Origin: an uncultured Spartobacteria bacterium
GTDB lineage: Bacteria > Verrucomicrobiota > Verrucomicrobiia > Chthoniobacterales > UBA6821
Length of the DNA: 35,593 bases
Direction: 5' to 3'
Assembly: GCA_903868795.1 (NCBI GenBank)
Contig: CAIPWR010000138.1
Span: 1-35,593, forward strand
Shown here piece after piece: positions 7,330-20,417 of the stretch (within the stretch, counting starts at the first letter, position 1; each line of letters starts with the position of its first letter). The translations under genes were made by a program, and so were the position numbers. The notes under the pieces were generated by a model, which was given only the letters and a program-made list of their open reading frames with translations, had not been told where the DNA came from and searched no databases.

Positions 7330-7608
7330 ATGTCACGCTCACTTAAAAAAGGCCCGTTCGTGGAGTGGAAACTCCTCGAGAAGATCGACAAGCTCAACGA
7401 AGGCAACGTCAAGAAGCCCATCAAGACCTGGTCTCGCCGTTCCACTGTCACACCCGATTTCGTGGGTCACACTTTCAATGTGCACAACGGTCGTTCCTTC
7501 ATTCCCGTGTTTGTCACCGAGAATATGGTTGGACACAAGCTCGGCGAGTTTGCACCAACCCGTATTTTCAAGAAGCACGGTTCACACACCGCAAAGGTTA
7601 CGAAGTAA
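7330..7608 (+). CDS. rpsS: 30S ribosomal protein S19
   Basis: S19 is in the 30S head and forms bridges to the 50S subunit. The 92-residue protein starts [12 protein letters not shown] and has the conserved [21 protein letters not shown] and [11 protein letters not shown] segments. It is the last standard gene before an unusual insertion: normally rplV follows directly, but here a predicted exported protein begins 20 bases after the stop codon. No Shine-Dalgarno motif precedes the ATG. Confidence 0.98.
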
Positions 7609-7628
7609 CAACGTTATTGCCACCCGCT

Positions 7629-8366
7629 ATGATTTCAACCCGTTCATGCCAACTTTCCGCAGCGACTGCGGCCGCCCTCCTAGGGTTGCCGATTGCAGCA
7701 GCTGTTGCGCAAGAGAACGGGGATTCGGGTGCCACGCTCCGCGAAAAGCTCATTCTTTCCGAGGCTTCCATCAAAGGGCTCACCGAGAGTCTGGCAATTG
7801 CCAATGGGGAGTCTGAACTCTTTAAGCGAAAGTCCGATGAACTCAATGAGCGTATCGAGGCTCTTGGGATTGCAACCGCCGACAAAGAGACGGAAAACCT
7901 TCGCTCCCGCCTCCTCGCCGCTGTTCGTGATCTTCGTCTTCTCCAGAAGCAGAATGATGCTTCGCGCGATCATCTGACCGCCCTGACCGAGTCTGTCATG
8001 GAGTTACTCAAGAAGTCCGAAGGTATTGAGCCCAAAGCCCGGCTCAAGGTTGAGGAGGAGTTACGTTCCTGCTCCGCATATATCAATCAGGAAAGGAGTC
8101 TCCCTGAGTCCTCACAGGCCGACCTTACGACGGGGACCATTGTTGAAGTGAAGCCGGATCTTTCTCTTGTTGTGGCAAATCTAGGTTCCCGTCAGGGAGT
8201 CAAGACCGGCATGCCTTTCCAAGTATGGCGTGGTGACCGCCAGGTTGCTTCCGTCCGTGTTGTGGATGTCCGTGACTCGATCAGCGGCGCCATTGTACAA
8301 AACACCATCACTCCCGCCGAGTCCGTAAGGTCTGGCGATACACTCCGCATCGATACCACCCGCTAA
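7629..8366 (+). CDS. Predicted exported coiled-coil protein inserted in the S10 operon, function unknown
   Basis: I do not recognise a named family. The ATG at 7629 gives 245 residues. A longer open frame reaching to 7365 would lie inside rpsS in another frame and was rejected. Residues 1-28 look like a signal peptide: a short polar start with one Arg, then AATAAALLGLPIAAAVA and a likely cleavage after AVA27 or nearby. Residues about 36-150 are rich in Glu, Lys, Leu and Arg with heptad-like spacing, suggesting a long coiled coil. Residues about 166-241 form a beta-rich domain with GTIVEVKPDLSLVVANLGS, RQGVKTGMPFQVWRG and SGDTLRI, resembling small beta-barrel domains that follow coiled coils in envelope proteins. 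It is 20 bases after rpsS and 11 before rplV, in the same direction, so it should be co-transcribed with ribosomal genes. It would act in the periplasm or envelope. Confidence 0.8.
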   Translation: MISTRSCQLSAATAAALLGLPIAAAVAQENGDSGATLREKLILSEASIKGLTESLAIANGESELFKRKSDELNERIEALGIATADKETENLRSRLLAAVRDLRLLQKQNDASRDHLTALTESVMELLKKSEGIEPKARLKVEEELRSCSAYINQERSLPESSQADLTTGTIVEVKPDLSLVVANLGSRQGVKTGMPFQVWRGDRQVASVRVVDVRDSISGAIVQNTITPAESVRSGDTLRIDTTR

Positions 8367-8377
8367 TTTTTTTACCC

Positions 8378-8848
8378 ATGCAAGTCATCGCCACCCACCG
8401 CTACGCGAAAATATCAGCCTTCAAGGCACGCGAGGTCACTCGTGAGATCCAGGGCCTTCCAGCAGTTGATGCGCTCCAGCAGCTCGCCTTCATTCCCAAA
8501 AAAGCAGCTCCTCTGATTGCCAAGACTCTTAAGAGCGCAATCGCGAATGCTGAGCACAACAACAATATCCGTCCCGAACTCCTTGTGATCAAGGAGGCTG
8601 TTATTGGGGAGGCCCCGACCATCAAGCGTGTGCGTCCCAAAGCCCGTGGTAGCGCTGGTCCTGTCCGCAAGCGCAACAGCCATATCCGGATCGTTCTCAC
8701 GGACGAGGTCGCTATTGTCCGCCGCTCGGACAAGCCAAAGACCAAATCTTCTGCCAAGCCAAAGGCCAAAGCCACGAAAGAAGTACCCGCTTCCGCTGCT
8801 CCTGCAGTTGATGAGGTTACCGAGACATCCGTCGAAACCAACGACTAA
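8378..8848 (+). CDS. rplV: 50S ribosomal protein L22 with a C-terminal extension
   Basis: L22 spans the 50S subunit and lines the exit tunnel. The first 115 or so residues form the usual fold, with RYAKISAFKAREVTREIQG, the AIANAEHNN motif and the tunnel-loop segment RVRPKARGSAGPVRKRNSHI. After about residue 117 there is a low-complexity tail of roughly 40 residues, rich in Lys, Ala, Pro and later Glu and Thr, making the protein 156 residues against about 110 in E. coli. It lies 11 bases after the inserted exported-protein gene. It has no Shine-Dalgarno motif. Confidence 0.97.
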   Translation: MQVIATHRYAKISAFKAREVTREIQGLPAVDALQQLAFIPKKAAPLIAKTLKSAIANAEHNNNIRPELLVIKEAVIGEAPTIKRVRPKARGSAGPVRKRNSHIRIVLTDEVAIVRRSDKPKTKSSAKPKAKATKEVPASAAPAVDEVTETSVETND

Positions 8849-11396: not shown

Positions 11397-12017
11397 ATGT
11401 CACTGCCCATTGCCGAACTTCAGAACGAATACACAACGCGCGTCATCCCGGCTCTCAAGGAGAAGCGTGGATACAAGAACGTTCATCAAGTTCCCCGCCT
11501 CACCAAGGTCGTCATCAACACCTCCATCGCTTCGGCTCCCGATGTGAAGGCAGCGCTTGAGATCGCCAAAGATGAGCTAGAACTCATCACCGGCCAGAAG
11601 CCCGTCGAGACAATTTCCAAAAAAGCTATTTCCAATTTTAAGCTTCGTGCCGGTCAGGCCATCGGAGCCAAGGTCACTCTCCGTGGCCGTATCATGTACG
11701 AGTTTCTTGAGCGTCTCATCAAGACGGCTCTTCCCCGTATCCGTGACTTTCGTGGTGTTTCCACGCGTGCTTTTGACGGAAATGGTAACTACACTCTTGG
11801 TGTGACGGATCAGTCCATCTTCCCCGAGGTTGAACTCGACAAGATCAAGCGCAACATCGGATTCGATATCACCATCGTCACTTCCGCCACGAGCAATGAC
11901 GAGGCACGCGCCCTCCTCACCGAGCTCGGAATGCCTTTTGCCGGCCGTAATGCCAAGAAGGTTGAAAAAGCCGATACTGCTTCCGCAGATCAGGCTCCTG
12001 AATCCGCTTCCGCCTAA
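11397..12017 (+). CDS. rplE: 50S ribosomal protein L5 with an acidic/Ala-rich tail
   Basis: L5 binds 5S rRNA and contacts S13 across the subunit interface. The 206 residues include VPRLTKVVINTSI, ITGQKPVETISKKAISNFKLR, GAKVTLRGRIMYEFLERL and ALPRIRDFRGVSTRAFDGNGNYTLGV. After the last family element (GMPF) there is a low-complexity tail of about 25 residues. E. coli L5 is 179 residues. A partial Shine-Dalgarno AAAGGA (11382-11387) lies nine bases before the ATG. The usual next gene, rpsN, is missing and rpsH starts six bases after the stop. Confidence 0.97.
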   Translation: MSLPIAELQNEYTTRVIPALKEKRGYKNVHQVPRLTKVVINTSIASAPDVKAALEIAKDELELITGQKPVETISKKAISNFKLRAGQAIGAKVTLRGRIMYEFLERLIKTALPRIRDFRGVSTRAFDGNGNYTLGVTDQSIFPEVELDKIKRNIGFDITIVTSATSNDEARALLTELGMPFAGRNAKKVEKADTASADQAPESASA

Positions 12018-12023
12018 TTATCA

Positions 12024-12422
12024 ATGAGTGCACTGACCGATCCCATCGCCGATCTGCTCACCCGAGTCCGCAACGCTGTTAGCGTGCAGAAGGATGAGTT
12101 CTTCGTTCCCTATTCCAAGATCAAGAGCGACATCGTCGCCATCCTCAAGCACGAGGGTTATATCGAGGAGTACGAACTCGACAACAAGGAGGCCCATCCC
12201 CGCATCAAGATTCGTCCCCGCTATGTGGGCAAGACTCCAGCGATTGCAGGCCTTCGTCGCATTAGTCGCCCAGGTCTCCGTCGTTACGTCGGAAGTGAGG
12301 AGATCCCTCGCGTGCTCGGTGGGCTCGGCATCTCCATCATCTCCACATCACGTGGCGTCCTCTCGGGTCATGAGGCCCGCAAGCAGAAAGTCGGCGGAGA
12401 ACTTCTCGCCTACATCTGGTAA
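12024..12422 (+). CDS. rpsH: 30S ribosomal protein S8
   Basis: S8 organises the central domain of 16S rRNA and, in E. coli, represses the spc operon. The 132-residue sequence starts MSALTDPIADLLTRVRNA and ends in the conserved GVLSGHEARKQKVGGELLAYIW, with ISTSRGV near the end. Length is typical. It follows rplE directly because rpsN is not in its usual place. The six-base gap leaves no room for a Shine-Dalgarno site outside the rplE coding end. Confidence 0.98.
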   Translation: MSALTDPIADLLTRVRNAVSVQKDEFFVPYSKIKSDIVAILKHEGYIEEYELDNKEAHPRIKIRPRYVGKTPAIAGLRRISRPGLRRYVGSEEIPRVLGGLGISIISTSRGVLSGHEARKQKVGGELLAYIW

Positions 12423-14549: not shown

Positions 14550-16052
14550 ATGATCTCTGCGTTCGCCAATATCTTCAAGATTCCCGAGTTGAGGCAGCGT
14601 GTCCTCTTCACACTTGGCATGATTGTTATCATGCGCATTGGTGCAGCAATCACAACTCCCGGTGTCAATGCTCAGGTGTTGCGTGAGTGGTTTCAAAACG
14701 TAGCTGATCACAGTGCAGGAGGCGGTGCAGCCGCACTCTTCAATCTCTTCTCCGGTGGAGCTCTTGGGAATTGTGCTATCTTCTCGCTTGGTATCATGCC
14801 CTACATCAGTGCATCGATCATGCTCCAACTTCTTGGGGCTGTGATTCCTAAGCTGGGGCGTCTTGCCCGTGAGGATGGTGGGCGTCAGAAAATCGCCCAG
14901 TACACTCGGTACACGACCATCGCGCTTTGCGTGTTCCAGGGCTATCTCCTAGCACTCTCTTTCGAGAGCCCTCAGTCGAACCCTTTCCTTCCCGGCATCT
15001 CCGACACGATTGCACGCCTCGGCATCCCATTGGTTTCCGATCCCGGTATTGCTTTCCGACTCCTGACGGTGTTGATCATGACAGCTGGAACTTTGTTCTT
15101 GATGTGGATCGGCGATCAGATTACCGAGCGTGGTATCGGTAACGGTATTTCCGTAATCATCACCATTGGCATCTTAGCCCAGCTCCCTGCCGGTCTGGTG
15201 CAGGCTTGGAGGACTTTTGTTCCTAGTGGTGGTGAGGCGACCCAAGTAAGTCCCGTTGTCCTTGTCATCCTCTGTGCATTCCTTTTCCTAGTGATCGCGT
15301 CTGTTATTGCGATCACTCAGGCGACGCGTCGCATCAGTGTTCAGTATGCCAAGCGCGTTGTGGGCAGAAAGGTCTATGGCGGTCAGACACAATACATGCC
15401 ACTGAAGGTTAACTATGCCGGCGTGATGCCAATCATCTTTGCCCAAGCAATCCTGATGTTCCCATCGACCATCATGAATATGGCCTTTGGAAACAGGCCT
15501 TGGGCCGTTGAGATTGCAAATCTTCTCACGAATGGATGGCTCCACTACGTTCTCTATGCCGTCCTGATCTTCAGCTTTAGTTATTTCTGGGTCGCGACCC
15601 AGTTCCAGCCAGCACAGATCGCTGATGATTTGAAAAAGTATGGTGGCTTCATTCCAGGAGTCCGTCCCGGAAAGCCTACTGCTGACTTCCTCGATTACAC
15701 CATGGGTCGCCTAACCTTCGCAGGTGCTCTCTTTCTCGTGGTGATAGCCATTCTCCCTCAACTCCTGAGCCGCGCCCTCAATGTCCCTTACATGGCCGCC
15801 CAGTTCTTCGGAGGTACCGGACTGCTCATTATTGTCGGAGTCACTCTTGATACGATGCGTCAGGTTGAGACATTCCTACTACAGCGTCATTATGACGGAT
15901 TCCTTCGCAAGGGTAAAATCCGCGGCCGCAGCGCTCCTCGTCCCTCGGTAGGTGGATCAACTGTCAGCGACTCCACCGTTGTTAAGATCGTTGCCGGAAT
16001 CGGATTGTTCGTGATTGCCGGTTTGGCTGCCTACCTCAGCACGCACCGCTGA
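14550..16052 (+). CDS. secY: SecY preprotein translocase channel subunit
   Basis: SecY forms the membrane channel through which signal-peptide proteins are exported and membrane proteins inserted. The 500-residue sequence has the family's ten hydrophobic segments, with ISASIMLQLLGAVIPKLGRL after the plug region, GIGNGISVII, the cytoplasmic loop RRISVQYAKRVVGRK and the C-terminal QRHYDGFLRKGKIRGR. After that ending an additional 40 residues include another hydrophobic stretch, KIVAGIGLFVIAGLAAYL, which may be an extra membrane segment. It lies in the usual place after rplO, with adk ten bases downstream. Confidence 0.97.
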   Translation: MISAFANIFKIPELRQRVLFTLGMIVIMRIGAAITTPGVNAQVLREWFQNVADHSAGGGAAALFNLFSGGALGNCAIFSLGIMPYISASIMLQLLGAVIPKLGRLAREDGGRQKIAQYTRYTTIALCVFQGYLLALSFESPQSNPFLPGISDTIARLGIPLVSDPGIAFRLLTVLIMTAGTLFLMWIGDQITERGIGNGISVIITIGILAQLPAGLVQAWRTFVPSGGEATQVSPVVLVILCAFLFLVIASVIAITQATRRISVQYAKRVVGRKVYGGQTQYMPLKVNYAGVMPIIFAQAILMFPSTIMNMAFGNRPWAVEIANLLTNGWLHYVLYAVLIFSFSYFWVATQFQPAQIADDLKKYGGFIPGVRPGKPTADFLDYTMGRLTFAGALFLVVIAILPQLLSRALNVPYMAAQFFGGTGLLIIVGVTLDTMRQVETFLLQRHYDGFLRKGKIRGRSAPRPSVGGSTVSDSTVVKIVAGIGLFVIAGLAAYLSTHR

Positions 16053-19083: not shown

Positions 19084-19695
19084 ATGGCCCGTTACACAGG
19101 ACCCAAAACAAAAGTCAGTCGCCGTTATGGCGTTCTTCTCGCAGGATCAGCACGTGCTTTCGAGCATAAGCCTTATCCTCCCGGCATGCACGGTCCGAAG
19201 GGCTCGCGACGCAAGGTTTCCGAGTATGGCACCGCGCTTGCTGAGAAGCAGAAGCTTCGTTTCCAGTATGGTGTTCTTGAGCGCCAGTTCCGCCGCTACT
19301 TCGAGACAGCTCTGAAGACCCGTGGAGTCACCGGACTCATCCTTCTTCAGCTTCTTGAGAGGCGCCTTGACAACGTCGTTTACCGCATGGGCTTTGCTAA
19401 GACCCGTTCGGCTGCCCGTCAGATGGTTTCCCACGGCCACGTTGCTGTGAACGGCCGCAAGTGCGATGTCTCCTCCGCGACACTCAAGGTTGGTGATGTT
19501 GTTGCTGTCCGCGAAAAGGATGGCTCCAAGCGCCTCGCCCAGCGTGGTCTGGATCAGACTCAGATCGTTGATGCTCCGGATTGGCTTCTTGTCGATAAGG
19601 AGGCTCTTAGTGGCAAGGTTGTGCGCATTCCTACCCGTGAGGAAATTAACCCTGTGGTGAACGAGCAGCTCGTTGTTGAGCTCTACTCGCGCTAA
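19084..19695 (+). CDS. rpsD: 30S ribosomal protein S4
   Basis: S4 nucleates 30S assembly and in E. coli regulates the alpha operon. The 203-residue product is of the zinc-free type: it has no CxxC set near the N-terminus. It contains YPPGMHGPKGSRRKVSEYG, KQKLRFQYGVLERQFRRYF and the S4 RNA-binding domain with LERRLDNVVYRMGFAKTRSAARQMVSHGHVAVNG. The leader has a pyrimidine- and A-rich stretch, ACTTTAACTTTTTC, just before the ATG. rpoA and rplQ, which often follow, are not in the window. A terminator begins 23 bases after the stop. Confidence 0.98.
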   Translation: MARYTGPKTKVSRRYGVLLAGSARAFEHKPYPPGMHGPKGSRRKVSEYGTALAEKQKLRFQYGVLERQFRRYFETALKTRGVTGLILLQLLERRLDNVVYRMGFAKTRSAARQMVSHGHVAVNGRKCDVSSATLKVGDVVAVREKDGSKRLAQRGLDQTQIVDAPDWLLVDKEALSGKVVRIPTREEINPVVNEQLVVELYSR

Positions 19696-19717
19696 GCAGA
19701 ACATTAGTAATTTCAAG

Positions 19718-19754
19718 AAAAGCCGCCCGGAGCGATCCGCGGCGGCTTTTTTAT
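19718..19754 (+). terminator. Strong intrinsic terminator of the ribosomal cluster
   Basis: AAAAGCCGCC (19718-19727) and GGCGGCTTTT (19741-19750) form the outer stem, and CGGA/TCCG an inner extension around the GNRA tetraloop GCGA, with one bulged C. It is followed by more T residues. Stem, loop and T tract make a textbook rho-independent terminator, placed just after rpsD. Confidence 0.93.
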
Positions 19755-19835
19755 TGTTGTATTCACGCAACTGTAAGGGTGAGAGAGGGACGGGGTAACT
19801 TGCCCACTTCCCACAGCAAGGATATCTTCAAGCGT

Positions 19836-20417
19836 ATGATGCAGATGAAGCGAGTGGTTGACTGGGTGAGACTGATCGGAGCGTTCCTTCTGATGCTGAA
19901 TGTCTCCAAGCTTGTCGCGCAGGATCCAAGCAATGTCCAAAGCAAGGAGCAGAGCATGCTCGACCGCATCATGCATCCCGACCGAAGTAGGCAGAGTGCC
20001 TATCAGGGAAAGGAGTTCAACTCCAAGGGAAGCCCCTACGACAAGGCCTTCTCAATCAAGGAATACGCCGGTGCCCGTGAGTATGGTTCCCACTCTTATG
20101 AGACCAAGGGCTTTGCCTCCGGGGTGAAAGGGTGGCTTGGCGATCACTTCTTTCCCAAGAAGAAGCTCTCCGGAAACCTGGAGAAAGCGAATCGCGATGC
20201 CGAAAAGAAATTCGACGCCAAGGATTTCAAAACCAAAAACTTTACGGACCTTGATAAAACAAGCCCCTACTCCTCCAAGGGGGACTTTCCGACGAAAAGC
20301 ATCTCTCTCAAGGGAAAGACGCAGGGGGCCATCGATAACAATCCCCAGCTCGAGGATGCCATCCGTAAGGGCCTCTCCATCGATGATGTCAGGAAACTGC
20401 TCAACAAGGGGCCGTGA
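19836..20417 (+). CDS. Secreted protein with repeated Lys/aromatic motifs, function unknown
   Basis: I do not recognise a named family with certainty. The ATG at 19836 gives 193 residues (19845 is an alternative). Residues 1-28 look like a signal peptide with VRLIGAFLLMLNVSKLVAQ. The mature part has recurrent [Y/F]-x-x-K-x-[F/Y] units, such as YQGKEF, YETKGF, FDAKDF and FKTKNF, and ends in QLEDAIRKGLSIDDVRKLLN. I recall similar Lys-aromatic-repeat exported proteins from Verrucomicrobia, but cannot verify this. It follows the ribosomal-cluster terminator and precedes tyrS by 27 bases. An AAGGA at 19818 lies 13 bases before the ATG, wider than usual. Confidence 0.7.
   Translation: MMQMKRVVDWVRLIGAFLLMLNVSKLVAQDPSNVQSKEQSMLDRIMHPDRSRQSAYQGKEFNSKGSPYDKAFSIKEYAGAREYGSHSYETKGFASGVKGWLGDHFFPKKKLSGNLEKANRDAEKKFDAKDFKTKNFTDLDKTSPYSSKGDFPTKSISLKGKTQGAIDNNPQLEDAIRKGLSIDDVRKLLNKGP

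Follow-up and report, generated by a model that had tools for sequence, protein, structure and literature searches.

The window analyzed here is a stretch of 35,593 nucleotides from an uncultured Spartobacteria bacterium. Between rpsS and rplV, an intact open reading frame of 245 codons, here called X, begins with ATG and runs without frameshift in the same direction as its neighbors. The end of rpsS at 7608 is followed by a spacer of 20 bases, and 11 bases separate X from the start of rplV at 8378. The reading frame, the spacers and the S19 and L22 profile matches agree, which bears out the complete, co-directional gene described in a sequence-only reading of this DNA. The identities of the two neighbors, as assigned by these profiles, are secure. 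Translation could also begin in frame at a TTG (position 7617); the ATG is the one that agrees with the relatives. The features of the locus are as follows.

7330 to 7608, forward strand: rpsS (uS19), upstream neighbor of X (TIGR01050, 145 bits)
7629 to 8366, forward strand: X, embedded gene of 245 aa, predicted to be exported (open reading frame, homologs, dN/dS 0.06-0.20)
7629 to 7712, forward strand: predicted signal peptide region, residues 1-28, with the site between AVA and Q (direct reading; the pattern recurs in homologs)
7725 to 8099, forward strand: extended helices, probably a coiled coil, residues 33-157 (AlphaFold2; heptad test)
8127 to 8354, forward strand: C-terminal beta domain, residues 167-242, common to long and short forms (AlphaFold2; hhalign; Foldseek matches to FlgT and the F1 N-terminal barrel)
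8378 to 8848, forward strand: rplV (uL22), conserved partner gene of X (TIGR01044, 103 bits; adjacent in 104/104 genomes of the class and 51/79 others of the phylum)

Several other features of this cluster were recorded. The usual S10-spc-alpha order is altered at 12017-12024, where rpsN is absent between rplE and rpsH, and at 19695-19779, where rpoA-rplQ do not directly follow rpsD. A second predicted exported protein of about 197-212 aa, with no Pfam match, is encoded at 19779-20417 (forward strand), a little downstream of rpsD and upstream of a tyrS-like gene. All 13 genomes of the genus contain it, and three further genomes of the order gave weak matches. The C-terminal tail of L22 (8700-8848) is long, rich in Lys, Ala and Glu, and poorly alignable between members of the genus.

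Within the genus, the dN/dS of X is 0.06-0.20, with dS near saturation for several pairs; this purifying selection indicates that X is a real gene. Its most constrained part is the beta domain (pN 0.006 and pS 0.39 in the comparison with the nearest relative). X is located between rpsS and rplV in all 13 genus genomes, in 4 of the 7 other sampled genomes of the order, and in nine contigs of named records labeled Spartobacteria, Chthoniobacterales, one Verrucomicrobiaceae and one Proteobacteria, the last presumably mislabeled. The identical place in these nine contigs and the 13 genus genomes rules out a local insertion or an assembly artefact.

The wider distribution was surveyed in samples of genomes within Verrucomicrobiota, several of the counts being among the matches listed. 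A class-wide profile search with X matched 132 of 237 genomes. At E<=1e-12, 119 genomes of the class contained X, and in every one of the 104 among them with a listed rplV position it immediately preceded rplV in the same orientation. In the other classes of the phylum, broader profile matches were obtained in 62 of 79 sampled genomes, and 51 of the 79 had the match in this same place: 16 with the order rpsS-X-rplV, 31 with X-rplV and rpsS elsewhere, and 4 without a listed rpsS position. Since X stays with rplV in those 31 genomes, the conserved partner is rplV. The proposal that X is embedded at the rpsS-rplV junction was thus correct for this locus, while the conserved link turned out to be with rplV and not with the junction as such. 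X is an old, phylum-wide feature and no oddity of one junction. Profile searches and gene order place the homologs of relatives inside the ribosomal operon, and the copy in the window is intact, contrary to what was named beforehand as grounds for rejection (homologs outside such operons in all relatives, and a frameshifted copy).

X has the properties of a resident gene of the S10 operon: it is co-directional, its position is conserved, and its spacers are short (the medians across 82 loci, some of which belong to the same species, are 17.5 and 12 bases). Neither spacer flanking X in the window contained a terminator-like site, and an Rfam search of the window matched no RNA element. A single promoter-like match was found near X, at 7605-7633, which is fewer than in shuffled sequence. 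The codon adaptation of X falls at the 62nd percentile and that of its ribosomal neighbors at the 79th-100th (background of 136 ORFs from 20 stretches). Such average usage implies that X is not obviously an abundant protein, and it weakens the idea that a strong promoter drives X as an abundant structural protein. Moderate expression is the best reading, and the output of X may be uncoupled from that of its ribosomal neighbors at translation, as far as codon usage can indicate.

The N-terminus of X, MISTRSCQLSAATAAALLGLPIAAAVA followed by QE after the predicted cleavage site, resembles a signal peptide by direct reading. Sequence pattern and simple scoring recognize the n, h and c regions and the cleavage site expected for Sec export, and 80 of 82 homologs pass a simple test of h-region and charge. 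This agrees with the signal peptide proposed earlier, and the product is predicted from these patterns to be exported. An AlphaFold2 model built on a 39-sequence alignment (mean pLDDT 84) placed helices at residues 33-78, 86-128 and 135-157, followed by a beta domain at residues 169-241 with a block pLDDT of about 94-97; at a pTM of just 0.44, the model does not fix how these parts are arranged relative to one another. The C-terminal beta domain had also been anticipated, and the confident model upholds it. The long coiled coil fared less evenly, for the long helices were modeled as expected and heptad periodicity was significant in helix 2 alone (p=0.02; helices 1 and 3 not significant), giving moderate confidence in a coiled coil. 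The best-conserved stretch of X reads DLSLVVANLGSRQGVKTGMPFQVWRG...RVVDVRD...GD.

X is covered by no family in the Pfam and NCBIfam profiles, and no description of it was found in the papers searched on the Verrucomicrobia ribosomal cluster, in agreement with its nomination as a previously undescribed gene. A LysM or other wall-binding domain had no profile support in X or its homologs; by structure comparison the modeled beta domain is closer to FlgT-C and F1-N folds. A sequence search against solved structures returned coiled-coil noise and nothing else. The profile PF16538, for the C-terminal domain of FlgT from the Vibrio flagellar H-ring (PDB 3W1E), matched X at 16.8 bits (E 0.009), below its cut-off of 27 bits, and matched 5 of 27 homologs at E<=0.1 (best 0.0093). 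In Foldseek the full model likewise had FlgT as its top match (E 1.3e-4), and MreC and the N-terminal barrels of F1-ATPase ranked lower; the domain alone fell in the same neighborhood, with E 3.8e-3 for FlgT and nothing at E<=0.001. The likeness is confined to the domain, TM-scores over the query being 0.2-0.5, and small beta barrels of this type are common. The model suggests a fold like that of the C-terminal domain in FlgT, which is a ring protein of the periplasm and likewise an exported protein ending in a small beta barrel; unlike X, however, FlgT has N and M domains.

In many genomes without a profile match, the gap between rpsS and rplV is filled by a predicted exported form of 111-130 aa consisting of the beta domain alone. 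The short and long forms are matched by hhalign at 98.6% (E 1e-15), and the short form was modeled as the same beta domain. The helical part is therefore dispensable in several families. The gap is empty in family f19, in g9 (a sister genus to that of the window within family f1), in parts of f22, and in several further families of the phylum. In two genomes of 0.9 Mb it measures 148 and 313 bases without a recognizable gene, consistent with decay of X. These clean losses in several lineages show that X is not universally essential.

The host genome also contains a paralog, L002 (contig C48, 1450-2319), encoding 289 aa beside ruvC and lipB. Like X, it has a membrane anchor, a coiled coil and a homologous C-terminal domain (25% identity); it differs from X in its locus, in an anchor that looks uncleaved, and in its separate group in the domain tree. 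L002 has relatives across the phylum and, like X, is uncharacterized. In that tree, which was built on few columns, the paralogs lie on one side of a single branch with weak support (63/94), and most sequences from the order of the window cluster together. This topology is compatible with X having been inherited vertically at the rplV locus, without proving it.

Our tentative interpretation, held at somewhat less than even confidence, is that X is a phylum-wide exported scaffold or adaptor of the envelope, read together with ribosomal proteins and thereby matched in dose to ribosome production. The signal peptide, possibly an uncleaved anchor in some lineages, would take X across the inner membrane, where the long helices would probably oligomerize the protein. 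The FlgT-C-like domain, the only obligatory part, would then supply the functional contact, whose partner is most likely a further protein of the envelope, making X a periplasmic scaffold or adaptor. X would be read from the mRNA of the S10-type operon or, where the S10 cluster is broken, as the first gene of an rplV-led operon, and its dose would in this way rise and fall with ribosome production and growth rate. A functional link is argued for most strongly by the genomes in which rpsS has a different location and X still lies beside rplV; what speaks most strongly against it is the clean loss of X in some lineages. That the X-rplV pair is itself under selection even in broken clusters, with envelope assembly capacity tracking growth rate, seems doubtful.

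X may instead be an ordinary envelope protein that has stood before rplV since the ancestor of the phylum, kept there by slow change of gene order and with no dose link. Ribosomal gene clusters do rearrange slowly, and the average codon usage suggests no selection for ribosome-like output; paralogs of the same architecture at other loci and the clean losses also favor this explanation. Adjacency to rplV in the 31 genomes with a displaced rpsS counts against it, as does the tendency of matches away from rplV to resemble the paralog type, judged by length and not case by case. Moreover, gene order in Verrucomicrobiota has been described as otherwise poorly conserved (PMC4607532). On balance we consider such neutral residence a possible but rather unlikely explanation.

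A role at the translocon or in co-translational export is quite improbable. X, exported or anchored, would then work with the Sec machinery or with ribosomes bound to the membrane, which would account for its place among ribosomal genes. The gene secY also resides in ribosomal operons, and in the window it is located at 14550-16052 (identity from gene order and sequence reading). Like X, it is an envelope-related gene within a ribosomal-protein operon; secY in the spc operon, however, is near universal and understood, whereas X was found here in one phylum and is uncharacterized. The N-terminal anchor seems uncleaved in some homologs (L109, L120), but the signal peptide of most looks cleavable, which would leave no cytosolic part to contact the ribosome, and profile searches found no sequence likeness to Sec or YidC partners.

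A FlgT-like flagellar or MreC-like cell-shape component is very unlikely and largely refuted, since the sub-threshold FlgT_C match, the Foldseek ranking and a weak match of one X homolog to MreC models are opposed by the absence of a fliF match from the host genome (97% complete) and from most X-bearing genomes tested, and by a separate true MreC on contig C13 of the host. The fliF survey rules out a part of the flagellar H-ring, and the host's own MreC rules out a substitute for it. MreC, like X, is membrane-targeted and has helices in its N-terminal half and a beta part after them, but it has two barrels against one, and X has no match to the MreC profile PF04085. The two genomes of genus g26 tested contain X and no MreC match; the occurrence of X tracks neither fliF nor the MreC gene. 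Sub-threshold fliF matches were seen in G097, G019, G044, G111, G145, G316 and G359, all without a full FliF, and may be YscJ-type secretion-system ring proteins.

These two g26 genomes (G045 and G103) each contain an exact copy of the standard 16S primer site of A. muciniphila three times, from which we infer that g26 is Akkermansia. In both, X is located upstream of rplV. A published transcriptome lists the tags Amuc_0296-0297, 0301 and 0304 among ribosomal genes (PMC13335675), and these tags fit the map position of the cluster in both genomes. The main text of the outer-membrane proteome paper names none of the tags Amuc_0295-0300.

In this phylum, then, a heavily studied bacterial gene cluster holds a predicted exported protein without a Pfam or NCBIfam family, and its presence in Akkermansia opens it to tests in an organism that can be cultured. 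X is at the least a useful synteny marker for Verrucomicrobiota; if the dose coupling is true, it would tie envelope growth to ribosome production by simple genetic means.
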